A program made the position numbers and the translations under genes. A stretch of DNA of 64,000 bases from a virus: positions 1-64,000 of IMG/VR virus record IMGVR_UViG_3300028388_003330. One strand, 5' to 3'. Shown in pieces: positions 1,873 to 47,100 of this stretch (its first letter is position 1; the number at the start of each line of letters is the position of its first letter). The notes under the pieces are model-generated. The model ran no database searches and was not told where the DNA came from. It saw nothing but the letters and a program-made list of their open reading frames with translations.

Positions 1873-4800
1873 TTAACTAATCACTTCCGCCACAAGCTCA
1901 AAGGTCTTGTTCAAAATCTCTTGATGGGCGCTGTGATGATAGATCGTCGCCGGGTTGATTCCGACAATGATTGTGGCGTCCAAGGTCTTGTCATAGATGA
2001 CCTTGTTGGCGATATCCGTGTAGCCACCCTTCAGATCAGGAACCAATTTCCTAGCAATCGTAGCACCTAGTGCCACAATTACTGGCGGTTTCAGGTACTC
2101 AATTTCCCGTTCCAAGAACGGGTAACAACCATTAATCTGTTCGTTCGTCATCACCTTGCCGTCCTTCTTTGCCTTCAGCAGCGTGGTGAAGTACATGTTC
2201 CTCATAGACAGGTCCGCATGCTTCATCGCTTCCCTGACGTACTTGCCGCTTTTTGCTGCCATCAACTCCCCGGCTTCTTCCTCAATCCATGTCGGGCAGT
2301 CTGTAATCACCATCACTTTCGGTGACTTGCCCATCCTTGGTTTTAAATGAGGTCTGCCAGCAAGATTGCAGTTCTCGCAACCGTCAAACTCTTTCGTAAG
2401 TCTGATGATTTTGGCGGAAACGAACTTGTCGATTTCCATTTTCCGGTCTGTCTTGACCATCTGAACGATCAGCCCCGGAATAAACTCAATCTGGTCGCGC
2501 AAACGATCAGGGTGCAAGACAGGAAGCCCGCCCTCAATCTCGACAAAGGAACCAATCCTTTGCAAACGCTCACGCACCGTCTTGTTGATGCGTTTGCCTT
2601 CCATAAAATTCTCAAAGTCGGCATAGCTTTTGAAGCGACCGCCCGCCTGTGTCCGCGCTTCAATGATCCGGTGACAGGAGCGTTCTGAAATCCCCTTCAC
2701 ACGATTGAAGGGAATAATTAGCTTATACTTATCAGCCTTTGTATCGAACACCACTTCAAACACGTCGCTGGACCGATTGATGTCAGGCGGAACCACCATG
2801 ATGTCCTTGTTTGCAGCGTCCTGAACCAAGCCCTGCAGCTTGTCTTCGTCCAGAATGGACAGGGAAGCCGCGTAGAACTGCGCTGGGTAATACTGCTTAA
2901 CCCACATCGCCCAATAACTGATAATCGAATACTCAACCGAGTGTGACTTGTTGAAGGCGTATCCGGCGAACTTCTGGATCTTATCGAACAGCATTTGGGC
3001 GCGGCGCTCCAACATATCAGAATGTAATTTGCAGCCCTCAACCCACTTAGATTCCTGCTTCGCCATCATTTCCGGGTCTTTCTTACCCATTGCTTTACGC
3101 AGGTGATCGGCGTCCGACATGGAGAAGCCCGCCAAGTCCTGCGCGATCTTCATGACCTGTTCCTGATAGACGATAACGCCGTAGGTTTCCTTAAGCGCCT
3201 CAACCATGTTGGGATGCTCGTAATGGATCGGCATCACTCCTTGTTTGGTCGCTACGAAATCCTCCATCAAGCCAGAGTCCATAGGGCCAGGTCGATACAA
3301 CGCTGTTGCTGCCGCGATATCCTCAAACGTCAAGCCGCGTACACTGATGTCCCGCAACAGCTTCCGCATACCCGGAGATTCAAACTGGAACACGCCAATG
3401 GTGTCACCCATTGCGAACGCGTTCAGCACCTTCTCATCGTCCAGCGGTAGCTTTTGATAATCGACCAGAACACCGTGATCGCGCTTGATCATATGCTTGG
3501 CGATGTTGAGAATATCCAAGGTCGAAAGACCCAGGATATCCATTTTCACCAAACCCTGTTCCTCGACAACGCGCTTGTCCCAGTTGACCGTGACATCATC
3601 GCCCCGCGTTTCCACAACGGCACGATTAACAATCGGTTCTCCAGCAACAACGATACCCGCTGCGTGTCTACCCAGACTGCGCATCTTGCCCTGTAACTTC
3701 TTCGCGTGTTCCCACACAACAGGGTGGTTTGTTTTGAAGGCATCAATTTCCGGAACAACCTCTGCCGCTTGTTCCATTTCATATGATTTGCCGTGTAACG
3801 CAGGAACCAGCTTTGACGCGGAATAGGCGTCTCTCTCCAGATTGAACACGCGGGACACATCACGGATTGACCCTGCGGCTCCAAGACTGGTGAAGTTGCT
3901 TATACCCGCAACGCAATCTCTGCCATAACGATCCACAAGGTATTGAACAACCTCTTGCCGTCTGGATGACATGAAGTCGAGGTCAGCATCAGGAAGATCC
4001 AGACGATCCGGGTTGATGAACCGTTCAAAAATCAATCCAAACCGCAGAGGATCGACATCGGTAATACCCAACAGGAATGCGATCAACGAGCCGCCTACTG
4101 ATCCTCGACCTGGGCCTACGGTGATATCGTTGCGCTTGCTCCACTGCACCAAGTCCTGCACCAACAGGAAGTAGCGTTCAAAACCCATCTGACGCAGCAC
4201 TTTCAGTTCGGTTTGCAGGCGTTCCTTATACTTTGGCAAGTCTGCGGGGTCCGGCTTGAATCCTAGCTGTTGTTGACCAAGTCGCTTAGTCCAACCCTTC
4301 TTAACTTCAGAAACCAGCGTCTCGCGCTCATCATCAGCCATCTTTGGAAGCGACACATCCGACGGCTTCCAGACATAATTAATCTGGTTAACGAAGAATT
4401 CCTGGTTTTGAATAGCCTCAACCCAGACAGCGCCCGACCAACTGTCGAGCTGTGCCATACGCTTGTTCAACCTCTCAGATGCCGCTTCCGCTTTGTTCAC
4501 TAATTCGCCATGTTCGCAAAACGTGAACGACCGTATTTGTTGAACAGGACGCCACGCATCCGTGATCTTGGCGTTCATTGCAATGGCTGACATCACATCC
4601 AGCGTGTCGGCATCCTCTTCTGTAAGGTACATCGCCGGATATGTCAGCAGCACCGGAAGCGATAATTCTCGGGAACAACTGATGGCACGGATGTTCAGTG
4701 TATCGAACAGCACACTGTCGATGGGGCACAATTCCACAAACGTCTGAGAGCTTCCACAAGCGCTTGCCATTCTCTGGATATATCCGCAGTAGTCTTCTTT

Positions 4801-5259
4801 ATGGCAGACGCTTAGAAAGTCTCCTGTAGACGCTAGCAAATGCCCCCGAGATAGCTCGCTTAGCAGTTCTTCGAATCCGATCCGAGAGTGATGGTAGAAG
4901 TGATCTGCTTGATTGGCGATGGACAGCAATCGATACAGCGACCGGATTCCTTCTTCGTTCTTGGCGTAAACCTTCACGAAGAACTCTTCATTGGGCTTCG
5001 TGCGCTGCTTCTTTGGGGTCTTGTCGAGCGGGTCGTCAACGATTCGAATCTTGCAGCCGATAATCGGCTTGATATCGTTCTTCAGACACGCCTTAGTAAA
5101 AGGGATCATTGACGAAATGCTCATGAGGTCCACAAGCGCCACAGACTTGTAGCCTCGCTCTTTCGCCAATGCTGGAATTTCTGTAGGGCTTAACAGCGAA
5201 TGCCCGATACTGAAGTCGGACATTACCGAAAGCGCATGCTCAGCTTTCAACTCCCCCAT
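1873..5259 (-). CDS. DNA polymerase III alpha (DnaE-like) with degenerate PHP domain and UDG-like C-terminal domain
   Basis: A C-family replicative polymerase of 1128 residues. The polymerase core shows GPGRGSVGGSL, FERFINPDRL and PDADLDF, whose two aspartates match the catalytic pair of E. coli DnaE, and LVKMDILGL supplies the third. The N-terminal PHP region keeps DIKPIIGCK but lacks the usual His-x-His and Asp-His metal ligands (it reads SDFSIG and VDLMS), so a PHP exonuclease is probably inactive. Residues from about 950 to the end look like a family 4 uracil-DNA glycosylase: CENC, PKVMVITDCP, INGCYPFLEREI and PPVIVALG. The catalytic GEAPG is TDCPT, the HPS is NPA and one cluster Cys seems lost, so this tail may only bind. 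It overlaps the upstream gene by 13 bases. Confidence 0.93.
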   Translation of the reverse strand: MGELKAEHALSVMSDFSIGHSLLSPTEIPALAKERGYKSVALVDLMSISSMIPFTKACLKNDIKPIIGCKIRIVDDPLDKTPKKQRTKPNEEFFVKVYAKNEEGIRSLYRLLSIANQADHFYHHSRIGFEELLSELSRGHLLASTGDFLSVCHKEDYCGYIQRMASACGSSQTFVELCPIDSVLFDTLNIRAISCSRELSLPVLLTYPAMYLTEEDADTLDVMSAIAMNAKITDAWRPVQQIRSFTFCEHGELVNKAEAASERLNKRMAQLDSWSGAVWVEAIQNQEFFVNQINYVWKPSDVSLPKMADDERETLVSEVKKGWTKRLGQQQLGFKPDPADLPKYKERLQTELKVLRQMGFERYFLLVQDLVQWSKRNDITVGPGRGSVGGSLIAFLLGITDVDPLRFGLIFERFINPDRLDLPDADLDFMSSRRQEVVQYLVDRYGRDCVAGISNFTSLGAAGSIRDVSRVFNLERDAYSASKLVPALHGKSYEMEQAAEVVPEIDAFKTNHPVVWEHAKKLQGKMRSLGRHAAGIVVAGEPIVNRAVVETRGDDVTVNWDKRVVEEQGLVKMDILGLSTLDILNIAKHMIKRDHGVLVDYQKLPLDDEKVLNAFAMGDTIGVFQFESPGMRKLLRDISVRGLTFEDIAAATALYRPGPMDSGLMEDFVATKQGVMPIHYEHPNMVEALKETYGVIVYQEQVMKIAQDLAGFSMSDADHLRKAMGKKDPEMMAKQESKWVEGCKLHSDMLERRAQMLFDKIQKFAGYAFNKSHSVEYSIISYWAMWVKQYYPAQFYAASLSILDEDKLQGLVQDAANKDIMVVPPDINRSSDVFEVVFDTKADKYKLIIPFNRVKGISERSCHRIIEARTQAGGRFKSYADFENFMEGKRINKTVRERLQRIGSFVEIEGGLPVLHPDRLRDQIEFIPGLIVQMVKTDRKMEIDKFVSAKIIRLTKEFDGCENCNLAGRPHLKPRMGKSPKVMVITDCPTWIEEEAGELMAAKSGKYVREAMKHADLSMRNMYFTTLLKAKKDGKVMTNEQINGCYPFLEREIEYLKPPVIVALGATIARKLVPDLKGGYTDIANKVIYDKTLDATIIVGINPATIYHHSAHQEILNKTFELVAEVIS

Positions 5260-5891: not shown

Positions 5892-7055
5892 TTAGAAGGT
5901 GATGAAACGCTGTGCGAGGTTTTCCGCTATCTCCTTATCGATGGGAGTCATACGATTGGTGATAGCGAATTGAACACCTGCGATGATGCTGCCCTTCATC
6001 GATCCGATTTTGGCAGCGTGTATGAGTTCGCGAGGACCAACAGTAGCGCCGATCTTTTTGCTATCGAAAGCCTTCCTGATCTCTTGTGCCCAATCAATGA
6101 GCATTTCGGCGTCTTCCTTAGTGACACCACCCTGACCCTGTACGACGCTTGTTTCATGCCGCTTGGACATGTACTCGACAGGAATCGTCATGCCGAAACG
6201 CGAGTAGTTCGCCGCGTTTTGGATGTTTGTACCAGAGTATAGTCCATGTTCGTCGCCCGTTCCGTTGGTGTTTCCAGTTGCGACGAAGCGGAAGTTGGGG
6301 TGCGGCTTGATGATCCTGTTCTCGCGATCAGCCTCTTTTATAACAAGCGGCTTTCCTTCAAGCACCGGTTGATAAATCGCAAGGATCGATGGGTACGCGA
6401 AATCGTATTCATCAGCGAGATACAGCCATCCGTACTTCATCGCTAGCGCTAGCGGACCCAGTTCGAAGATCGTTTCTCCGGCCTTCACTGTCCACTGCCC
6501 GACAACATCGGTTTCCAGCATGTTTTCAGTATGTTGCACCCGCATGAACGGACGATGTGTGTAATGGCACATCTGCTCCACGACCGTCGTCTTTCCGGTT
6601 CCAGCGTGTCCGTACAGATACGTCGGCGTATTGATTTCGATGCCGAGAAGCAGGTTTTTGAGAACATCGATGTCCCAAATGTAGTTTTCGTCCTGCTCCG
6701 GAACTAAGTGGTCGTTTTCTGATGCACCGCAAACAGTGATCGGAATTCCTTCGCCTTTGATGTTCCGCGCCGCCTTCATTTTGCCCAATCCGAACACGTC
6801 ATGAAGGTGGGCAGTACGCTGCGATGACGAAAGCTGAACCACCTTGTCGTCATCATCATTGATGATCGGTGCTGCTCCGATCATCCGCGTCATCTGGCGC
6901 TCGCGGATTTTTTCTTCCGCCTCGTCGCTCAGCACCGGATGACCCGGATACGTCTCGCGATAGGTTTCCAGGCTGACTTCCGGATGCGCCTTAATCAGGT
7001 GCAGTTGAACGCTGTGAACCAAGTCTCCACAGATTTGACAGGTTATCTTACCCAT
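5892..7055 (-). CDS. CobS/MoxR-like AAA+ ATPase with N-terminal C2H2 zinc finger
   Basis: A 387-residue AAA+ ATPase. Residues 5-25 hold CQICG followed by two histidines (MucR-like zinc finger). The ATPase core shows Walker A GHAGTGKTT near residue 148, Walker B LYLADEYDF near 210 and a sensor-like FVATGNTNG near 255. The sequence resembles CobS, the ATPase subunit of aerobic cobaltochelatase, and related MoxR proteins. Phage CobS homologues are common, but no cobalamin genes are present here, so a remodelling role with the VWA partner encoded just upstream is more likely than metal insertion. The start follows AGGAGGGAAGAAT, and an operator-like repeat sits at 7070-7089. Confidence 0.88.
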   Translation of the reverse strand: MGKITCQICGDLVHSVQLHLIKAHPEVSLETYRETYPGHPVLSDEAEEKIRERQMTRMIGAAPIINDDDDKVVQLSSSQRTAHLHDVFGLGKMKAARNIKGEGIPITVCGASENDHLVPEQDENYIWDIDVLKNLLLGIEINTPTYLYGHAGTGKTTVVEQMCHYTHRPFMRVQHTENMLETDVVGQWTVKAGETIFELGPLALAMKYGWLYLADEYDFAYPSILAIYQPVLEGKPLVIKEADRENRIIKPHPNFRFVATGNTNGTGDEHGLYSGTNIQNAANYSRFGMTIPVEYMSKRHETSVVQGQGGVTKEDAEMLIDWAQEIRKAFDSKKIGATVGPRELIHAAKIGSMKGSIIAGVQFAITNRMTPIDKEIAENLAQRFITF

Positions 7056-7069
7056 ATTCTTCCCTCCTG

Positions 7070-7089
7070 CTCAGTTGCCACTTACTTAT
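7070..7089 (-). promoter_or_regulatory. Operator-like repeat upstream of the CobS-like gene
   Basis: On the plus strand it reads CTCAGT-N8-ACTTAT. One arm matches the recurring TAAGT-N8-ACTTA motif exactly and the other carries mismatches. It lies just upstream of the ribosome site of the ATPase gene, in the same place as the repeat before the VWA gene. An overlapping TTACTT-N8-AAGTAA inverted repeat occupies 7082-7101. Confidence 0.5.
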
Positions 7090-7127
7090 TGCTACAAGTA
7101 AATAGTATCGCGTTGAGTACGGTCAAT

Positions 7128-9224
7128 CTACTTTCCTTTGAGACTTGCCAAAAGGATCGTCTTTAGCTTACCCATTACAGCGCTGGGCAAGTCCTCGACC
7201 TTATTCAAAACTAGATTGTCGGTGTAGTAGTCCTCAACTGCCCGACTCAAGATACCGATTCCAATGATATTGGTATCAGTCTTTTCGATATCGCGGATAA
7301 CCCTCCGAGTGTATTCCCGAATATCATACGAACTACCCATCGCAGCAGGAGCACCGTCGGACAGAACGATCATCAACTTACCGTTCTCTCTGCGACTCTG
7401 TAAACGCCGATAGCACAGTTCAATCGACTCACCATCAACGTTGTTCCACAGATGACCGTTTTCTGGATAGTCCGCGAACCGATATTTGACTTCAGGGGTA
7501 AAGCGCTCATCGAAGGTCTTGAAGATCGGAAGATAGATTGCTTCGCCTCGTGAGAAGAGATTACCCTTCTCCTGCGCTTCGAAGAACTCCCTATGAACTT
7601 CTTCAGTGAAAGGCTTCGTCGTAAATCCGATCACTTCATGCGGCACGTCGATGCGCTCCAGCACAGAAGCCAGCGCGTATGCAGCCTGTGCAGCGGTCAG
7701 CATCTTGAAACCCGCCATCGATCCAGAGCAGTCAACAACCAACTGAACAGCAACATCGTTGGTGATCTTCTGTTCCTTCTGACGGAACACCCGCATATCC
7801 ATTAACTCGGGGTGCTGCTTACCAATTGCGAGTTTAGATAGCGACCGAGAGTTAAGCGAACCTTTGCGCTTTCCTCCTGCCCAGCGGATCATGCTTTGCG
7901 CTTTGATAAGGCGTTCCAGTTCCTTCTCCATGACGCCAAGCATGTGATCGACGGTGTCTTCCATGAGCCCAACTTGACCTCGCTCTGGATACTTAGGCTT
8001 CCAGATTTCGACCACATCTTCGTCCGTTGTAAACGCCCTGTATGTTGCGGACTTGCCAATTTCTTCTGCTTCCTCAGAGATTGCCGCTGATACACCCATA
8101 TCGAAGTCGTTAACAGCGTTTTCCCAATCCTCTAGCGAGAAGTGGTAATCGTTGTCATCGGTGTTCATTTCCTTGTCTGTGTTGGTCATGACAAGCTGAT
8201 CGTCGTCATCACCATCGGAGTCGTCAGAGTCGGATTCATCGGACGATGCGCCGTCAGAATCTATTCCATCATTAGAAGGCGTCGTATCTTCATTTTCCGA
8301 TCCGGGTTCATCATCCTGACCAGATTCCTCTTCGTCACCGTCTTCTTCGCCTTCGTCGGAGCTTCCGCCTTCGGATTCCTCTTCGTCACCGTCTTCGTCG
8401 GAATCAGAATTATCGCCACCAGATCCACCTTCCTGCTCTTCATCACCCTCGTCCTGATCCTCATCCTGACCAGACGCGCTACCCTGCGTTTCTTCCTCGT
8501 CGTCATCCGGGGAGTTATTGTCGGGCGACATTTCCTCATCACCCGATCCAGTCGGATTCGAAGGAGGCGGTGGAGGGGTTGCTGCGCTGTCTTTGAGGCG
8601 ACGATGCATCTCTTTGGCGATTTCGTAGGAGTCTTGGGTAGATGCGATATGACCGATGCGTTCAATGATGTCATCACCAACGATCTTGACGAATCGCTCC
8701 AAGTGCTCCCACTTGTCTTCCATGAACCGCTGAACATCACGCTGCCCGCTCCACGCACGAACCGCTGGAACGAACAGGATGCCTTCGATTGCCTCCTTGT
8801 CGTTGTTCTGAATCGCTTCAGCGAGCTTGGGGGAGATGAACTTGCGCAAGAAGAAGTCCCGCACGTTGTCCAAATTGTATTCGGACCCTCGAAACCGCTT
8901 CTGCATGCATCGCTCAACAAACGGGTCTTCAAGGATGTTGTGCTCCTGACCGAAACCCTCCTGCGAGGACTTCATCAGAAGGTCGAAGTCGGAGAACAGC
9001 AGATGACCAACTTCGTGATCCAGAAACCCCTGAATCGCGTTTAGCAGGTCATCGCTCGCGTTGTCCGGAATATAAGGAATGTTGACGCGACGAACTTCAC
9101 CGTTTCCGTGATGCTCGACATACGCCTGCGAACCCCGCTGAGTGACTTCGATATCCCGTCCACTCAGGATTCGAGTCACCGACTTAACGGCTTCGCGAAT
9201 AAGAAAAATACGGTCATTAAGCAT
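7128..9224 (-). CDS. CobT-like VWA protein with N-terminal HExxH motif
   Basis: A 698-residue partner of the AAA+ ATPase. The C-terminal third is a von Willebrand A domain with an intact MIDAS (VVDCSGSM near residue 490, and LSDGAP later). Residues about 220-345 are an extreme Asp/Glu/Ser stretch, as in CobT. The N-terminal region contains HEVGH at residues 70-74, a perfect HExxH, followed by NILEDPFVE, which could supply a third metal ligand. This suggests a metallopeptidase-like domain, as known in some VWA proteins (DUF2201 families) that partner MoxR ATPases. The substrate is unknown. The gene begins after GGAGGGAGGATAAAA and has an operator-like repeat at 9242-9261. Confidence 0.88.
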   Translation of the reverse strand: MLNDRIFLIREAVKSVTRILSGRDIEVTQRGSQAYVEHHGNGEVRRVNIPYIPDNASDDLLNAIQGFLDHEVGHLLFSDFDLLMKSSQEGFGQEHNILEDPFVERCMQKRFRGSEYNLDNVRDFFLRKFISPKLAEAIQNNDKEAIEGILFVPAVRAWSGQRDVQRFMEDKWEHLERFVKIVGDDIIERIGHIASTQDSYEIAKEMHRRLKDSAATPPPPPSNPTGSGDEEMSPDNNSPDDDEEETQGSASGQDEDQDEGDEEQEGGSGGDNSDSDEDGDEEESEGGSSDEGEEDGDEEESGQDDEPGSENEDTTPSNDGIDSDGASSDESDSDDSDGDDDDQLVMTNTDKEMNTDDNDYHFSLEDWENAVNDFDMGVSAAISEEAEEIGKSATYRAFTTDEDVVEIWKPKYPERGQVGLMEDTVDHMLGVMEKELERLIKAQSMIRWAGGKRKGSLNSRSLSKLAIGKQHPELMDMRVFRQKEQKITNDVAVQLVVDCSGSMAGFKMLTAAQAAYALASVLERIDVPHEVIGFTTKPFTEEVHREFFEAQEKGNLFSRGEAIYLPIFKTFDERFTPEVKYRFADYPENGHLWNNVDGESIELCYRRLQSRRENGKLMIVLSDGAPAAMGSSYDIREYTRRVIRDIEKTDTNIIGIGILSRAVEDYYTDNLVLNKVEDLPSAVMGKLKTILLASLKGK

Positions 9225-34768: not shown

Positions 34769-35156
34769 AGGACAGCTCCTTGGATTTAGCAGGGAAAGTG
34801 TCGATGGAGACGGTGTAGTCGCCGGGAAGCTCGGCAGTTATTTCCAGAACCCCATCGTCCACCGTAACTCGTTCAAGCACGCCCACTGCAGATAGGGTGA
34901 CAACGGCACCAACAGGCACGCCAGACAGCGTGGCAACGTCTACACCGTCAGCGACGATGGACGTCTTATCCAGTTGAGCGGGGTTGTCGGGTCGCAGGAC
35001 AGGCTCGCCGTCAGGAAAATATGTGGACGCTGCGTCGAACTCTCCTTCATAGTGTCCCTCGTCGGCATTTACGTTATTCGCCAACCCGCTTTCAACGCCG
35101 ATGTGTATTTTGACGACGCGCCCGGTATCTGTTTTGTAGATGGTGTAAACGCTCAC
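34755..35156 (-). CDS. Small beta-rich tail-tip protein
   Basis: A 133-residue beta-rich protein (VVKIHIGVESG, VGAVVTLSAVGVLERVTV, LPGDYTVSIDTFP). Its GTG start overlaps the stop of the giant gpJ-like gene. Small proteins at this position are common in siphoviruses and often belong to the tail tip or fibres. The later strands look Ig-like. No specific family assigned. Confidence 0.68.
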   Translation of the reverse strand: MSVYTIYKTDTGRVVKIHIGVESGLANNVNADEGHYEGEFDAASTYFPDGEPVLRPDNPAQLDKTSIVADGVDVATLSGVPVGAVVTLSAVGVLERVTVDDGVLEITAELPGDYTVSIDTFPAKSKELSFVAT

Positions 35157-38100
35157 TTCTTCACCTCAAGCGCAGAGATAATTAGGTCGTCCACTTTTAC
35201 TTCTATATCGTTTCGACCGCTTTCATAGGTGTTAGAAACATACAAATCTACTGAGTACCTACGAGTCCCAGCAGGCGGAACGTCCATGTACACAAACGTG
35301 ATAAAGTCGCCGCCCCCTTCGCGATACCTCGCTATTTGAGTGCCACCATATATGTGTACATCATCTCTTTTAAGGTCCATGTACAACGAATCGTACCCAT
35401 CGCCGTTGGCGCTGGATATAACCATCCGCATACTAACTGTTATCAGCGCTTCGTTACCAGTAGCCGTATACGTTAAGTATCCGTACTCCGTCCAAGTGTT
35501 TGCAACAGTAGTAAGAGTTGTGAATTTATTCGTCGTTGGTATGGTGACCGCCCTGTCAGCTATCTTTAACGTAGTGACAGCAAGTTCATCTATCTGAAGC
35601 GTACCAACCGCAAGCTCAGCGATATGCCCTCTTTCCACAATCTCCAGGGAGTCGGCCTTCAGAGAAGAGGCTTCGATATTCCCCCTGGCGTAGATGTCGT
35701 TAAACTGGGCGTTGCCGTTTTTGTTTATCCACCAGCCAGACGTTACGTTGACGAAGTTGGTAGACTGTATCGTGTTGCCGATATAGGCATCACCTATGGC
35801 GCCAGCGGCGATAACAGTAGAAACGTTACTCTGATTAATCTCGTCGATGAACGCGAAAGTACCACTCTCTGAGCCAGCAGACTGCAGGCAGGCCCTGGCC
35901 ATGTTCCAGGCTTGGTCCCTGTTCCAGAACTCGCGGTAGTACCGCGCCTCGGAGAAGATGCCCCCGTAGTACACACCGGAACCGAGAGAAGACGTATCCC
36001 AGTCGCCTTCGCTGTTTCCGCCAATAGCCACTGCACGGGCTGTCGTTGTGAAGCTGGACGTCGTGCCGAGCGTCGAGGTCTGGTATGACCCGTCGGCGTG
36101 GAACATGTAGTAGTGGAGTTCGTTCGCGTCCTTGTCGAACGTGACGATCAGGCAGTGCCACTCGTCCTGGTATATCGCGTCAGTAAGCGTGCTGGGGTTG
36201 CCGAATGCAAGGCTGACATTCATCTTGCCGTTGCCGTCGTACGTGGATTCGGAGGTAGAAACCCCCCAGCCATCTGATAAGTCCCGAGTAACAATCCGCG
36301 CCCCTGAAGGGGGAGGCGTGGACGGGGCTTTAAAGACAAACACCCACGACTGCTGCGGGTAGGTCGCGTACGCCGTGTCCACATTCTTCGCGAGCTTGAC
36401 CCCTGCGCTGTCTATCTGGACGCCTTTGCCAAGGTTGGCCTGGACTACACTTACCGAGTTCGCGCCGTTGCTCAGAGTCACATAGCCAAGTTTGGCGGTA
36501 GCGTCCTTGAACTCTCCGCTGTCGTCATCGCTGTAATCTGTTGCAAACGACCAACGCCCAGCAAGTTTTGTCGGGTTTGGTAGGCTGTCTGGATAGCCGG
36601 TGAAGTTATCCCAGAAGTCAGCACCAACAGTTGCACCGTCTTCGATGTTGTTTAGCTTAGTGCCCTCGGCGGTGCTGATTTCCGACAGCGAGGTGGGAGT
36701 GCCGGAGAGATCGTCGTACTCGGTTGTGCCGCCACCTGGGATCGCATAGGTCGATGGGTTGGACAATGCCCCGACCCGCTCCTCGAACATGATGCCGTCG
36801 AACCACACGTCGCAACCCGCACCGCCTTCGTTGTCTACGCGAAGCAGAAGGCGGGTGGAGGTGGTATCCGCCGAAAGGTCTATCGTGGCCGTGATGCGCT
36901 TCCAATCACCGGGTGTAGCGGCGCAGGTGAAGTTGTAGCCGAGATAGGTATCGTTTAACTGCCGCCGGGTGTATAGCTGCACTGCCGCGTTGGCGGTGTT
37001 GCTGCGGACGTAGCAACTGAACAGCCACACTTTACCCGGCTCTATCGGGATGTTGTAGTTAGTTGCGCCATCACTAAGAAAGACGTACCCATTATCGCCG
37101 GTCGCCGCTATCTTTAGGCTGTGCCCACCGAAATAGCTGACAGTGGCGTCTAGGCTTACGGTAGCCGTCGACGCCTTAGCCAGCGTCGGGAAAATATTCT
37201 CGAACACCGAGTACCGATAGTTGGCAATGTTGACGCCACTACCTGCCGTGTTGTTGTAGGTACTGTCGGCGTCAAGCTCGCCCACGTAGTCGAGGTCGTA
37301 GATCGAACTGTTGGTCTTCGCCAGGGCGCTAACAAGCGGGGCACCCTTGTAGATGCTGAACGGTATGTCGAGCCACGCATCGGGGTCGTCATCAACCTCG
37401 CCAGCGTAGGCTTCAAAACCGTTGCCTTCCCCACAGCCTGGGATGCCGATGAGAACGTAAGCGCTGCGGTTCTTGAACAGATTGGTCGAGCCGTAGACCG
37501 CCTTTGATGCGCCGCAGCGGTACATCGCCGCGTCTAAGCCGTTAGCCAGACGGTTGTTCTCTGGTTCGTCGAAGCCGTAAACGACCACGATCTTGGTGTT
37601 GTCAAGAGCGTTGAGCGCAGCGGCCATCGTTGTGGCGTTAGCGACGCTACCGTAAACATCGTAGGTCTGACCAGACTCTCTGAGTCCGGTTGTGCGGTTG
37701 AACACAACCATGGTATAGGAACGCCCGATGCCCTGGATCTGGGTGTCGTCTTCGTCGTAAAGGCCATGCCCATGGGCGGAATAAGTGGCTTGGTTACCCT
37801 TAGTTACCACCCGGTACATCAGCGGACGACCTGACAAGTTGGCAGTCCAGTCAGCGCCAACGGTCGCTTCAGGCTGTACGCGGCTGACCTCGACGTGGGA
37901 CACCTTGACCGTGCCGGTACACGCGCCAACGATGATCTGCACGCTGACCTGACGGCAGTCAGGCTGCAGCGCGGCAGCAGAACCCTCCAGCCAGTACCAC
38001 TGACCTTTGGTTACACCACCATCGTCGCTTACTAGATCTGGCCACGAGCCAACGGCGGTGCTTGCGCCAGCGCTGGTTTTCTCATTCAGTTCGATCCGGA

Positions 38101-41100
38101 ATCCTGTCCCGTTGTAGTCGGTCGAGAAATACACCCGCGCGCGGCAGTACAGCTTCTCCCCTTGCAGCAGTGGGATGTACTCGCCCCTGTTGGTGTAGCA
38201 TGTCTGACCATAGGCTGTCGCCGTGGGGTTGACCACTTGCCAGCAGGGACCGCCGTCTTCCGCCCCCGTAGCCGATACCGTGGCGCCCCCCGTGACGTTC
38301 CAGAACGACGTGTCGCCGGACGCGTACTTTATGAATCCCGGATCGCCGCAGAAGTTGTAGCCCATCGGCGCGTACTTGTTCAGCAACTGCTCGTCGGGCG
38401 GCATGTTATCTAGGTTAGTGCCCCAGGTTGCACCTACGGTCGCGCCTTTCTCGTATCCACCGATAGGCCGTATCTGCACGGCGTCTACGTCGTAGTAACG
38501 TGACGTTGCCGTCCAGTGGTACACAGCGAATGAGGCAAATTTGGCCCCGGCTGTTGGAGTGTATGTGTAGGTGTCTTCTTGCCACGTCGTTCCGGGGTAC
38601 TGCCCGTTGTTATATACAGAAACGAACGTGGTTCTAGTATCAGTCAACGCACTAGTACCACCAGCTCCTATGTGAGTTTTGCCCTCCGCGAGCGCAGAGC
38701 TTTTCTCGTTGAACCGGAGATACAGCCCAGTAGTGCCTACGCTCTCAGCACGATGGCGAATCGTTACCTCGTAAGTTTGCTTGTCGTCGATGGGTATTGC
38801 GGGCCACCCGTAAGCAACGCTGGCGTCATTCGCGTGGGAAATACGCATCCACGTCTTAGTGGAATCGCCCCAAGCAAATGCAGCCTTGCTATTCGTGCTT
38901 TCAACCGCTTCTATACCAGCAGGTTTGCCGTCTGGGCCGTTTATGGACAGGTTCCAGTTCGGCAGCATCCCTGAAACAGCCGATACGTCCCAGGCCGGAG
39001 TAGCCTTGACGACGATGTTTTCCGTTGCAGCACCGTCGGCGTTTGACGCCCATATCGCGATGGTGTTGGTGCCTTCAACAGCGTCCCCAACGCGGTAAAA
39101 CCACCAGCTTGTGTTATCAGGCTGCGAGCTAACTTCGTTGTAGTGTAGGTTTGCGCCTATGGTCGTTCCATTGAGTGCGAGTTGCACCCCGCCTTCAGCA
39201 TCGCGTATCAGGACGCCGATAATGATCTTACCCGCCACGGGGCAGTTGAATGTCCACGTATCGGCGCTAGCAATCGTCGTGCTCATGGGAATGCTGTCGT
39301 TGATGGCCCCTGTAGTGAACAGAGTGGACCCAGCAGCGAACGCAGCCTCTAGCGCGTCATACCATTCCTGCTTGGTCTGGCCTACAGTCGCACCGTCTTC
39401 GATGTTAGTTAACTTAGTGCCCTCGGCGGTGCTGATCTCCGACAACGAGGTTGGTGTACCAGAAAGGTCGTCGTATAAAGTTGTTCCACCTCCGGGTATC
39501 GCGTAAGACGAGGGGTTGGACAATGCCCCGACCCGCTCCTCAAACATAATGCCATCGACCCACAGATCACATCCTGCACCGCCGTCGTTATCAATACGAA
39601 GGCGAAGACGAGTTGAAGTGTCTGCGCTAAGGTCAAGCGTCCAGGTGATACGTTTCCAATCACCGGGCGTAGCCGCGCAAGTAAAACTGCCACCTGGGGT
39701 AGTGCCGTCGGAGTTCCTTACGGCACGCAACTGCACTGCGGAGTTTGCGAGACTGCTGCGGACGTAGCAACTGAACAGCCAAACCTTACCGGGTTCGATA
39801 ATTACGTTCCAGTCGCTAGCGTTTTCGGCAAGAAGAACATAACCATCATTGTCGGTTGCCGATATTTTCAGACTGTGCCCACCGAAATAGCTGATGGTGT
39901 CGTCGTAACTAACCGTTGCGCGGACAGGTACTAACGTCGGGAAAATGTCCTCGAATACCGAGCAACGGTAGTCGGCAATGTTGACGCCACTGCCTGCCGA
40001 GTTGTTATAGGTGTTGTCGGCATCAAGCTCGCCCGTGTAGCCAAGACCGAGAATAGTTACCTTTCCTCCACCGGCTCCAGACAGCGTCCCGTCGTCGGCT
40101 AGTTCAATGACGGTGTTGTCAATAGATTTATCAAAGAACGCAAACCGCAGGTTGTCGAAAATGACGGTGCCTTGGAACTGCCCACCGGACATGCCGGTAT
40201 AAGACGCCATTAGGTGAATCTGTAATCTATATATCTGCTCGCCAGGGTTAAGGCGGGCGGTAAACGGTACTTTCTGCCAGCCGGTGGTCGTCAGCGGGGC
40301 TGTGAACGGTGTCCGCCTGTAGCTCCCGGAGGTGTTATAGAACAGATCAACCAGAATACCTGGGCGTCCGCCTGCGACATAGTTTTCAATGTATATGTCG
40401 AACGCACCGGAGACGAAGGTATCAGCCGGAAGCGGGGTGTCGTAGAACGACACAGTGCGAACTATGCCGAAGTTAGTGGCAGCCGGTACGACAAACTTCA
40501 CCGCGTAGGGGCCGATGCGCCTGAGCGTCGTCTCTTTTACTGGAGTGCCCACTCCGTAGCTGTTCCACCCTGTTGGCCTAGTCTGACCATCCGGCCAATC
40601 ACTGAACGTCGGGTTGAAGCCTAGAGCAACTGAATCGTCGTTGGTGTAGATGCTGTCGTAGGGGATGTTGGTGACGTTGCTGTTGAAGTCAGCGCCTACG
40701 GTCGCGCCGTCTGCTGGCAGGTTGGTGTTGGTTGCTATCAGCGAACTGAGTACGTCGATGCCAGTACCGGCTGCGGTAGTCCATTTTCTACCAATGGCGA
40801 CAATGCAGTCAGTGTCCAGCGGTGTGAACGTGTATTTCACATTGCCGTTATCAACCGCCTGCCATGTATCCGTGTCAATGTCATAAATCGCGCCGAAGAA
40901 TTCAACGGCAGTTCCGAAATTGTTGGCGAACCGTGTGTTAGGGGACTCGTCCGTATAGATGATGTAGAACGGGTCTTGCTTAATCCCACCTTCCCACGCC
41001 GTGTTTAGCTGGGTGTCGTTGGTTATGCTGCGCTTCGTCCCATCCGGGTGATAGAACGTTGTGCCCGTTATGCGGATCTCACCGGGGTTCGCACTACCAT

Positions 41101-44100
41101 CCCCAAGTTCGTTTTTAAGTAACCTAACATCGCCGAACCCACCAGTGTGCATCGACCCCAGCGCAGCGCGATTGAGAGCAACAGGAACACCAGACACTCC
41201 GTCCCAATTTGCCGTATCACCAAGACCTGCGCCGTCAGTCAGTTCACTAGTGTTTGTGATGTAATTGGCGTTGAGTGCGCCCGTATAGTCGAGGTCAAGA
41301 ACGCTACCGCCAGAAAAATTGATTCCATCCCAATTTATCTTGCCGCCCGACTGCAAGACGATATTGCCAGATGAATCGCGAATCGTTATTTGCGAAAATT
41401 CTGCCGATCCAGATTTATCAATCCTCCAACCACTTGTTGGCGTGTAGTTAAGGCTTTGAATGTAATCGCCGATTTTCGCAGTGGAAATAGTGCCATCTTG
41501 TATATAAGTTTCATCGATATATACAACGCCATTGCGAACAATAAATGGTACAGATACATCAACGCCATTCGGATCAAGAATAGAAAACTGATTCGCAAGA
41601 ATCGCCACCTCTGAACTGGTGGTTCCAGATTGATCGTTTTCAACAGAGAGACCAATACCTGCTATTGCTGTTTTTCCATCAGCGGCACGAGCTTCTACTT
41701 TTACGGTGTATTCTGAGGAAAGAAGCCCGTCTTTATCTGCACGCGCTTTGGCTTCTCGCTGAACTGCCGCTATTCCCAAGCCGTCATAGTCCCTAAGAGC
41801 CCGACGCATACCACGAGCAACATACTCATCGTCGCTCAGGTTGTTAAGCCGCAGCATGAAAGGGGCGGTTCCTTCAAACCGCACCGGGCCGCTGTAGAGC
41901 GTCGGGTCCACGCCGCCGATATTACCAACTTCGACTTTGCCGACGTTGTCGCGAGATGCGTAGGACAGGTCGTGGGTGGCGACTACGCCCGTGGAGTCGA
42001 TAACAGTGATAACGCAGGGCTCTACTGCCGCAACAACGTAGTCAGATACGTTATGGGCAATAAGATAAGTGTCGCCCAGCATCTTCGTCGAGATAGCGGG
42101 TTCGCAGTCGCCACCGGCGCTGTCGCCAATAGCCGTAGTCTGAACGAGTCCAGGGGAAGTGATGTAGTGCGAATTGCCGAGTGATGTTTTCTCGTACGAC
42201 GAGTTTACGCTGTCATAAATAACACTGGTGTAGCGCGCCGCCAGAATCTCACGCGCCATCGGCAACAGACAGGTGTAGTCACCAGCGTTACCCTCGGCGA
42301 AGGCGACGATATCCGAACTGGACTCGATAATGACAAACGCCGGTTCAGTAACCGTCGTTGACCACGTCTGCACCGTGCCGGACGGGACCGTGACCGTAGC
42401 AGTCGGCGAGCTAAAATCATACAGCGGCGTGCCAGCATTGTTTATCTTGACGACTGCAGATCCCGACACCGCATAAAAATACAAAGTTACCGGCGAATAG
42501 CGGTTGTAGTAATGCCCGAAGTATCTGCCGCAATCAGAGAATGCTGGAACCTGATCGCCGCGATCCTGTAGCTCAAACTGCGTGGGCTTGTTCGCCGTGA
42601 ATATGTCACCAAGAGACGCGGTACGAGTGATGACACTCATCGCGTCCAGCGGGCCAGCGGTCTCTACACTGTTTTGGTAGATGTAGGTGCCGTCTTCCAG
42701 CGCTGCGATGCGAATGGTCTGGTCTCCGGAGGACCCGAGCACCACCCTTGGAGACGTAAGCGCCTGCGCATTTATATAAGAAGGTTCATCAGATCGAACA
42801 TCAGTCAATGCCGAAAGCTGTTGAATAGATTCTGCTCGGGCGGTTTGTTCATCAGAGATTACATCGTCGACATAGGTAATTGAGGCTTTGAGATCAATAT
42901 CAGCCTGAAGACCGTCGTCGGCAGTTTGATAATCCGTTTCCAGTTGAGAGATTGCGGTAGCTCTTGCCGTCGTTTCATTAGAGACTGCCGTGTCTACATA
43001 AGTAATAGACGCCTTCGACGATGAAAGGTCGTTATAACCCCAGTCCGAATAAACAGGAACAACCTCATAACCTGCGGGTGTGTAGGTATGATCACCAATC
43101 GCATCTGCAACAGCATCTTGGCGAGTATCGATCCAGCTATTACCTACAACGCCATAGACTGAAACCTGTACTCGACCAGCAATTTCTTTGGCGTTTTCCA
43201 GATTCAGTACATAAATGGTTGTCTTGTTTGCTGTTGGGTCATGATAGACCGCCAACCGATCTGGAATTTCTACATCATTGCGCCAACGATATACAGCGGT
43301 TCCTACAAACGTACCAATACCGTCATGTACAAGACCGTTACTGTTTGTAAAAACAGAAATATCAACGTCTGCTGAATTATCTTGGCGACCAGCCCTTGTA
43401 CCGTAACGGACGCGACCAGATAGAGCTAGTCCGTGATAATTACCGGTATTTGTATACTCAAATATCTTAAACGCCGCTGTTGTGCCACTGCCGTTATGAA
43501 TCTTTAGATCAACGTTATAAACCGTTTCAACTGCAGGTAGCGAAACCTTATCAAAATCACCAATGGGCACACCGTTCTGCAGATCGGTAACATCATCGGC
43601 GATAAGAGAATCGGCAGCTTTATAATCAGCGTCTAACTGCGACAACGCCGTGGCGCGAGCCTGCTGCTCATCAGAAATTACATCGTCGACATAGGTAATT
43701 GATGCTTTGGCATCAATATTGGTCTGAAGACCTGCGTCAGCAGCTTTGTAATCGGTATCTAACTGCGTCAACGCTGTCGCACGAGCCTGCTGCTCATCAG
43801 CGATTGCATCATCGACATAGGTAATCGACGCTCTGGTATCGATAGCGTAATCGGCGGTAGCGTCTTCCAGCATTATTGCGCCGACTTCCGTTGTTCCTGC
43901 TACACCGCCATAGTTGGCAATGAAAACGGGACGCATATAGCGAACGTTTTCGTGAGCAAGATGCGGGGCCTCTGCTGTGCTAGCGCCCGAATAATCTCCA
44001 AGCGGCGAGCCGTACCCTTTGGTATAACCGGTAATAACTTCCCAAGTTGCTGCTATGGTGCTTTTACCACCGCCAGTGGTGTGATAGTGCTGATTGTTGA

Positions 44101-47100
44101 AAACGTTATCGCCATTGATGTTGACATACGTCGTTCCATCGGACGCAATGCCCTCAAAACCCGCGTAGAAAGTACCGGTTCCAGCCGTCCTACGAATAAT
44201 AACGGTCCATTTATAGATACGCTCTGGATCAAACGGAATTAGGCTGTTATGAGCCAACCAGTGAAGATCATCGCCCGAGTTATCACCGATTCTTAGAAAC
44301 TTACCGCCCATATAGCTATCAGCGGCGGTTTGAATCGATAGCTCCCCAGTTCCTTGTCTGGTGATCCAGTAATTCAAGGCATTGGCGTCTTCCCAAGTTT
44401 CTTGGAAAATGAGATTGCCGGAGTTTGACGCCGTCGCTTCAAGCGCTTGGATTGCCTGAGTGTGCGAACTTAAAGTGCCTGCTTGATCAATATAAACTGT
44501 CGTTTCTAGGTTATCGATAGCCTGAGCGCTAGCACTAAGACCCGTTTCCGAGTCGTCAATTGACGCCTGAACAGCATCTAGACGATTGGCGTTAGCAACG
44601 ACGCCTCTTTCACTATCTTCTACCGTCGTTTCAAGATCGCTAATAGCAATAGAATGCGCTGCTACAGCGTCGCCAAGACTGGAGTAATCACCGATTTTCG
44701 TCCAGTAAGCGGTATCGGTAGGAAGAGGCGAAGGTGGAAAAACAGCCGTCGTATCCTGAATACACCGATAAAGCGAACCGTTGTAAGCAACGATATCGTC
44801 TACAAAATATTCAGTATTCGCATCAAAATCAGGCGTACCTTCAAGCGCCGCCACTTGAGTCTGGAGAGTATCTACCGCGCCCTCTAGGTCTGTCGTTCTA
44901 TCGTCAAGACCGGTAGTAGGCGTATCAATTAAATTAATTCTGCTATTGAGCGAAGCGGTTAATTCGCTCTCTGAAATCTGACCCTGAAGATCGGCTAATG
45001 TAATACCGAAGTCTTCAATGACGACACTAACCTCAGAGCTAAACGTTAGATTGTCTTTGCCCCAAATGTCATACGCCGCAACACGGACATACCAAGTTTC
45101 ACCGTTATTGGCGGTTATCAGACAACCATTGCCAGTACCTTCATATACCTTGTTTGTATTTATATTTGGAGTAAAGCCAATGGTTTGAGATGCGCAAACG
45201 ATATATCCGCCAACATCAACATCGCCTACACGATCCCAGCCAGCAGCATACTGCGTCTCAGCGTTATTAACGAAAAGATTGCTTGGCGCAGAACTAATCT
45301 GCGGGTTCGTAACGATAATACTTGCGGAGCTACCAGTGGTTCCGCTATAGAGTCTAGCTTTAACCCTAACCGTGATTGAACGATTAATCTGTCCGTCGTT
45401 CTGAGCATCCGCCCATGTATAGGTGTAAGACGGATCTCCAGTGTATGAAATTCGAACAACGGCTGAATTGATTTCAACCTGAACCTCGTAGTCGTAAGCC
45501 TCTTCCAGCTCGTCCCAGCGAACCGTAAAGCGATCCGAAATGAACGGACTTACCAGACCAAGATTCTGAACCTGACCGGGCGGGGCAACTTGAGTGCCGT
45601 TAACAGCGTTAAAATCACTATAAACGCCATCTGTAGTTACTGCTTTAACCCAATAAAAATAACTGATGCCCTGATTAACTGCGGCATCTGTGAAAGTCGC
45701 CTCTTTTGTACGTCCTATTTCTACCGCCGTACCGTTATCATCACTGGCACTGCGATAAACAACGATTTCGTCGTATATGCCTGTTGGCGGCGTCCAACTA
45801 AGGCTAACGATTGTTCCAATTGCAGTCGCAGTAAGGTTTGTAGGCGTAGTTACATCTGGGCGCGCAGTAGAACTAAACGCGATGGTTGGCGCACCAGCAA
45901 AAGTGGCCCGACGACCAACAATGTCAAAAGCAACGACCTTAAAGAAGACAGAAACGCCAACAGGGATGCGATGACGATACTCCAATGTCCGCATATCAAC
46001 CTGACCAACCTTCTCGTAAGGTGCGCCATCAACGGACATATGAATATCTGCACCGCCATAAACACCTGAAGCGGGATACGACCAATACAGATTTGCAACA
46101 GGAAGATAGCTGTTACCTATCTTCTCATATTCTTGGTAGACGCCTAGATCAACAACCTGCCCAATCTGTTGAGGTGCCTCATATATAGGCAACTCAATAT
46201 TATTGTCAACATTATATATTGCCGAATTATACTCAATGGCCCGGATTGTACGAACTTCATGACCAGAACCATTAATTGCAATAACGCGAAATGGACGCTT
46301 GACTAGGGTAACCGGCCCTAGCATAAATTTTGCGTATTTTGGAGGGGCTGAACCTAACGACGAGGCTACGGTTACCGATGATGTTAAACCCGGCGCGTTT
46401 GTAATATCTCGCTCAATTATTACATCAGTATCGTAAATAGTATAATCATGACCAGCAACGATACCAATGGTGTTTTCTATTTCAACACCATAATTTCCAG
46501 ATCCGTCATCATATACAACGCGACGAATTCGATGATCAACGCCGTTAATAACAGCGCGTGTTACGTTGGTATTGCCGTCATAACTGTTCAACCATACAAT
46601 GCCGCCTCCTACTGCTACGCCAGACACCGTACCGGTTGCGCGAGAAATCTTGTCGTAATTAATAAGCAGTCGGTAAGTAATACCGTCTAGTAACTCAACC
46701 TCTTGATCAAGGTTAACAACACTAACCGTGGAATTCGCTTCCAGCCGACCGCTGTACTCCCAATTCGGGAGATTATGCTGTACAAGTATCTGACTACCAA
46801 CCGTACAAGCAATAGACTCTACCGGCGCATCAAACGTAATGCTTTTGGTAATGTACTTGTTTAAGTTAAGTTGAAATACCGCCTCATTAACGGCTTGTTG
46901 TTTATCGGTACAACCAAATAACGTTATCCTTGCCGTTTTTACGTCATCAGTTGGCAAAAGAGATGGGTCGCGAACCTTTAATGTGGTTCTTTCATAATCG
47001 TTTTCTGAATCAAAGTAGGTAACTTCGATTTCATTTGCCCTGTCAGTCATGGGCAACCAAGTCATCTTAAATGACTTCTCGACAATGTTACCTACGTTGA

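Follow-up and report, generated by a model that had tools for sequence, protein, structure and literature searches.

A CobS/CobT-like gene pair at the head of a phage polymerase operon: a candidate ATP-driven peptidase with a conserved HExxH motif

Why would a phage place two genes resembling the CobS and CobT subunits of cobaltochelatase directly ahead of its replicative polymerase? The question is raised by a stretch of 64 000 nucleotides (hereafter the window) taken from an 80.2-kb virus record, IMGVR_UViG_3300028388_003330, which we read as a temperate phage and which may be a fragment. An initial annotation, made from the letters of the window, took the pair for an ATP-driven peptidase or remodelling machine rather than a cobaltochelatase, because the VWA-containing partner carries an HExxH metallopeptidase-like motif. 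Motif conservation, the predicted position of the motif on a helix, and a list of structural matches led by zincins all favor this proposal, and from them we infer that the pair probably has peptidase function. We also lean, by a narrower measure of confidence, toward the more specific reading of a MoxR-VWA-type zinc peptidase, powered by ATP and deployed with the phage replicase.

The domain content described initially is present in both proteins (Table 1). The CobT-like protein has HEVGH followed by NILEDPFVE, a long acidic linker, and a VWA domain with an intact metal ion-dependent adhesion site (MIDAS), whose residues D498, S500, S502, and D623 are kept in 154 of 155 aligned homologues and D597 in 140 of 155. 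The neighboring ATPase has a C-x2-C...H...H zinc finger, Walker A and Walker B motifs, and an arginine finger, and it matches Protein Data Bank (PDB) profiles of CobS (1.4e-28) and midasin (5e-36); its family, phrog_249, carries the label porphyrin biosynthesis. A MoxR-clade AAA+ ATPase gene therefore adjoins a MIDAS-bearing VWA gene, as in MoxR-VWA systems, and a strong Shine-Dalgarno sequence (AGGAGGGA) precedes both open reading frames (ORFs).

We examined conservation of the HExxH motif in relatives drawn from phage records, viral contigs, and genome contigs. The motif is intact in 117 of 128 distinct N-domain homologues and in 81 of 90 after reduction to <80% identity, and it spans four mobile-element lineages; the would-be catalytic base E71 is kept in 121 of the 128, E99 in 127, and E104 in 126. 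Conservation counts from the genome set are inflated, because the HE..H pattern was one of the two seeds of the genome search, whereas the viral search, which accepted H, S, or R at that position and added a VWA seed, is less biased. Chance yields an HExxH motif in the N domain in 2.3% of shuffles, and HExxH plus NxxED at the observed spacing in 0.04%. We accept the motif as real because it is conserved among homologues.

AlphaFold models the N-terminal domain with confidence (predicted local distance difference test score of 92.9 for residues 1–226 and 93.9 for residues 1–140). The model runs through a helix, three strands (26–29, 35–38, and 44–49), helix 58–77 bearing HEVGH, a short helix, and helix 92–110 bearing NILEDPFVE, so that the motif is predicted to lie not on a buried loop but on a long active-site helix behind a three-strand sheet, as in zincins. 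The PDB structures leading the comparison with the core (residues 1–140) are nearly all zincins, with projannalysin as the best match (4jix; Z 6.7, 97 residues, 3.0 Å), followed by BlaR1 (8ext; Z 6.3), proabylysin (4jiu; 6.0), selecase (5.9), SPRTN (6mdx; 5.9), IrrE (3dte; 5.1), ArdC (6sna; 4.3), and M32 carboxypeptidases. The minigluzincins among them (proabylysin, projannalysin, and selecase) share the core fold over 94–100 residues (Z 5.2–6.7) at 9–18% sequence identity, but they are stand-alone peptidases that have neither VWA domain nor ATPase. Spartan/SPRTN and IrrE/PprI, both tied to DNA metabolism, likewise share the zincin core, but lack a VWA/MoxR partner and have different ligand sets. 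The leading matches agree with one another and with the motif, and it is this agreement, not any single score, that makes a zincin fold with a formed site very probable. A Pfam scan of 74 N domains returned no peptidase family beyond chance level, and DUF2201_N, a putative-metallopeptidase domain sought as a bridge, is carried by few genomes in reach. Matches of the N-domain profile to AcrIIA26 and retroviral integrase (E 0.01–1) were taken as chance.

The residues around the predicted site indicate which ligands it may use. N96, E99, D100, and E104 are conserved on the predicted helix 92–110. N96 tracks the HExxH motif (79 of 81 sequences where it is intact vs 1 of 9 where it is lost), as does D100 (80 of 81 vs 3 of 9), whereas E99, D69, and G113 do not; E99 is kept in all nine sequences that have lost HExxH. 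The homologue in phage ICP2 has D100 and E104 without E99. Since E99 persists after loss of HExxH and D100 mostly does not, the third metal ligand is probably D100, with E104 behind it, an aspartate being likelier here than the classic gluzincin glutamate. In place of the gluzincin-like active site for which a test was initially suggested, a zincin-like fold with a different probable third ligand is predicted.

The N domain is also homologous to that of CobT. PF06213 (CobT) matches it in 71 of 74 relatives, its profile aligns over the full length with 25 alphaproteobacterial CobT N domains (98% probability, E about 1e-13), and the C-terminal half matches PF11775, making both CobT domains homologous to those of the phage protein. 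In the profile alignment, HEVGH falls on AVALR and NILEDPFVE on EVFEQARVE, with D100 replaced by Q; none of the 25 alphaproteobacterial N domains has HExxH at this position. The one HExxH seen in an over-long CobT ORF sits in a seemingly out-of-frame stretch, and a match to a solved CobT N domain (21vu, E 0.11) was too weak to be used. The metallopeptidase-like N domain of the initial annotation thus has a real motif, but the domain is native to CobT, corresponding to its N-terminal domain with the putative metal site preserved. The cellular aerobic CobS/CobT system shares with the phage pair both CobT domains, the VWA MIDAS, and the acidic linker, and differs in the replaced HExxH and D100 and in working with CobN.

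Judged by these alignments, the cellular CobT N domain would be the form without the metal site. When the intact or lost state of HExxH is mapped on the tree, six changes are required, and nearly all cellular CobT sequences, all of them motif-less, fall on one side of a single (starred) branch, where long branches meet and placement is not firm; on this unrooted tree an ancestral site and a gained one look alike. The link suggests an origin for the N-terminal domain of cobaltochelatase. It also reconciles two published views, the remark that phage cobT was mistakenly annotated as a peptidase (PMC8651126) and the metallopeptidase reading of the jumbo-phage protein (PMC7824862), both of which are partly right because the phage protein has a CobT N domain that retains its putative site.

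Homology over the full length of CobS and CobT would suit an auxiliary cobaltochelatase, already proposed for tailed viruses (PMC8651126), in which the phage proteins join a host CobN, insert cobalt, and raise cobalamin supply. However, the pair misses the NCBIfam CobS/CobT equivalog cut-offs widely (98 vs 558.6 bits and 87.6 vs 759.1 bits), and the HExxH motif kept in the phage form is missing from cellular CobT. The initial statement that no cobalamin gene accompanies the pair is borne out for CobN, which is absent from the 80.2-kb record, other cobalamin genes not having been searched one by one. CobN is also absent from the Xenorhabdus, Buttiauxella, Parasutterella, and Desulfovibrio genomes that carry HExxH relatives, some of which are incomplete metagenome-assembled genomes, and had no match in the control genome of E. 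coli. Phage PhiR41_1, for which E. coli K-12 is recorded as the host, has a closely related homologue with an intact motif (HEVAH...NALEDVFIE). Because CobN is lacking from the phage record, several carrier genomes, and E. coli, a cobaltochelatase role is unlikely, in line with the initial annotation, and we give the auxiliary version very little credence. A role in support of ribonucleotide reductase was also considered and dropped, as the whole 80.2-kb record has no large chain of that enzyme.

Genomic context points to DNA replication. The order cobT-cobS-DNA polymerase III alpha recurs in 70 of 80 viral loci and in 20 genome loci, with the polymerase within about 3.4 kb of the cobT end, and most exceptions are contig ends. 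In the window, cobT is the first gene of a leftward run, opposite an XRE-type regulator and an integrase. Relatives have a primase, helicase, or ligase upstream of the pair; in the window a helicase and a primase lie beyond the integrase. In phage ICP2 the pair stands ahead of primase, helicase, and polymerase. Conjugative plasmids of the IncC type encode a cousin reading HEAAH...NVLEDCRIE, accompanied by an AAA ATPase, a DUF3150 protein, and ssb-bet-exo. For a DNA-replication-linked role of the pair, we regard the case as evenly balanced. In one such plasmid (NZ_CP014978; locus L199, 1796–9788), ssb-bet-exo is flanked by the AAA ATPase gene on one side and the DUF3150 and HExxH VWA genes on the other, with comparable clusters in Desulfovibrio and Geobacter-like loci (L153, L156, L160, and L169).

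The same context bears on virion assembly, the role assigned by Iyer 2021 (PMC7824862) to an equivalent arrangement in group 2.2 jumbo phages, where a MoxR ATPase gene lies next to a gene for a VWA protein with an N-terminal metallopeptidase. Under this explanation, the pair would fold and trim structural proteins late in infection, and a MoxR-VWA pair required for tail assembly of an archaeal virus (cited in PMC7824862) offers a precedent. By its published description, the jumbo-phage pair shares the architecture; the present one differs in heading a replicative polymerase operon, in residing in an 80-kb temperate-phage record, and in the Ros-type finger of its ATPase. In the window, as in the 70 viral loci, the pair is linked to the polymerase gene rather than to structural genes, and IncC plasmids, which make no virions, have an intact-HExxH cousin beside ssb-bet-exo. 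We consider virion assembly improbable, ahead of cobaltochelatase and behind a non-cutting remodeller, discussed below.

The zinc finger of the ATPase provides a possible connection to DNA. Its pattern, C-x2-C-x9-H-x4-H with a Ros-like flank, is that of Ros/MucR fingers: PF05443 (ROS_MUCR) matches at E ≤ 1 in 28 of 33 relatives (best 5.6e-7), the window member alone being sub-threshold at 0.08, and the finger profile matches Ros in the PDB (2jsp) at 7e-5. Ros-type fingers are mostly confined to the polymerase-linked CobS group, in contrast to cellular CobS. In the mechanism we propose, the CobS-like ATPase ring would remodel or pull on a protein target, and the VWA protein would dock onto the ring through its MIDAS domain. 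The minigluzincin-like protease domain, formed by HEVGH and the D100/E104 helix and held on a flexible acidic tether, would then cut the target. As the first two genes of an apparent DNA polymerase III alpha operon, the pair would be produced together with the replicase, and the Ros-type finger could hold the ATPase on DNA. Its task may be the removal or processing of proteins where phage DNA is being replicated or recombined, such as roadblocks bound to the DNA, crosslinked proteins, or initiation complexes.

Several observations weigh against this mechanism. Operon position does not prove function. Foldseek E-values are not significant (best 0.65) and Z stays <8, which makes the fold likeness supportive rather than conclusive; PDB comparison of the full domain (residues 1–226) is led by helical-repeat proteins and yields no zincin-led list, because the helical extension dominated and the core alone was needed. 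The co-variation of N96 and D100 with HExxH rests on few independent losses (three supported pairs, sign test not significant). The gene pair is moreover retained where HExxH has been lost, as in Pseudomonas phage nickie (SExxK), a Stenotrophomonas phage (RExxT), and Kistimonas (HAxxR); further losses are seen at locus L041 (SExxK, as in nickie) and a few others. In such relatives the domain may work without proteolysis, like cellular CobT. These losses would fit a chaperone or unfoldase whose metal site is structural or peptide-binding, so that conservation of HExxH would not be about cutting; cellular CobT functions without the motif, and several known MoxR-VWA pairs, RavA-ViaA among them, act as remodellers (PMC7159879). 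E71 is conserved even though two histidines and an acid would suffice for a structural zinc, which speaks against this alternative. Of the rivals to the peptidase reading, the non-cutting remodeller carries the most weight, at a probability we still regard as low.

As natural variants that keep the pair without HExxH, the phages at loci L004, L006, and L041 would be useful controls. In relatives at loci L106 and L115, the gene is seemingly split or truncated, with C-terminal ORFs of 340 and 303 amino acids.

The closest named relatives, SSU5-type phage-plasmids and RHEph10/nickie-type phages (about 36–40% identity), have the same gene order and in most cases the motif, the nickie-type and Stenotrophomonas phages differing by its loss; their genes are annotated as porphyrin or cobalamin biosynthesis. 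The cyanophage "peptidase" (phrog_459) with cobS, as in P-SSM2 (PSSM2_150 and PSSM2_154), also has HEVGH, VNVCEDVRIE, and a VWA domain, with cobS a few genes off, amid recombination and clamp genes (between gp46/gp47 and gp45/gp44). It is more distant in sequence and not directly joined to a polymerase gene. The same architecture has been described before, in jumbo phages (PMC7824862), and the present pair is one more member of that kind. What is new is the relationship between the protease-like site and cellular CobT, together with the linkage to a replication operon in several mobile-element types, neither having been found in the open-access literature searched.

Cobalamin or porphyrin biosynthesis is the label given to many members of this family in phages and plasmids, some of them in the 990 matching plasmid records, and such genes can end up in counts of auxiliary metabolic genes. 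Should the label be mistaken, conclusions about how viruses contribute to vitamin B12 supply would have to be revised. A protease that is ATP-driven, portable, and encoded in a replication operon would raise a testable question: how do phages and plasmids deal with proteins that stand in the way on DNA? More speculatively, and with the balance tilted against it, phages, phage-plasmids, and conjugative plasmids might share an ATP-driven, VWA-coupled zinc protease acting at replicating or recombining DNA as a functional analogue of Spartan/p97, with cellular CobT derived from the same protease stock by active-site loss.

Table 1. Positions of the gene pair, its domains and motifs, and the downstream genes in the window
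Feature	Position	Strand	Evidence
CobT-like protein, 698 amino acids	7128..9224	-	ORF; phrog_1576 4e-185 (no function label: "unknown function"); CobT_C (PF11775) 8.7e-39
N-terminal domain, residues 1-215: predicted zincin-like core 1-140 plus helical extension	8580..9224	-	AlphaFold; structural matches; PF06213
HEVGH, residues 70-74, predicted zinc-binding/catalytic motif	9003..9017	-	Direct reading; homologue conservation; on helix 58-77
NILEDPFVE, residues 96-104, predicted third-ligand helix, D100 probable ligand	8913..8939	-	Direct reading; N96/D100 co-variation with HExxH; on helix 92-110
Acidic linker, residues 216-385	8070..8579	-	41% Asp+Glu
VWA domain, intact MIDAS: DCSGS 498-502 (D498, S500, S502), D597, D623	7149..7790	-	PF11775 8.7e-39
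CobS/MoxR-type AAA+ ATPase, 387 amino acids	5892..7055	-	phrog_249 2.2e-91; AAA_5 1e-18; CbbQ_C 2.9e-7
Ros/MucR-type C2H2 zinc finger, ATPase N terminus	6984..7040	-	C6, C9, H19, H24 invariant in 33 relatives
Walker A, GHAGTGKT	6588..6611	-	Direct reading; lysine invariant in 133 sequences
Walker B, LYLADEYDFA	6396..6425	-	Direct reading; Glu invariant in 133 sequences
Small gene between ATPase and polymerase, 201 amino acids	5247..5852	-	phrog_3616 5e-27
DNA polymerase III alpha, downstream, same apparent operon	1873..5259	-	phrog_405 2e-301

Other features of the locus and record were also recorded. In Rhizobium phages (L003 and L010), a sigma-70-like factor occupies the position that the 201-amino-acid gene has here. 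The C-terminal end of the polymerase is a uracil-DNA-glycosylase-superfamily domain (PF03167, residues 979–1110, 3.6e-11), an unusual replicase-repair fusion. Elsewhere in the window (35153–48817, minus strand), a 4554-amino-acid tail-tip/GpJ-like protein is encoded, with a CBM_5_12 carbohydrate-binding module and an ILEI domain.

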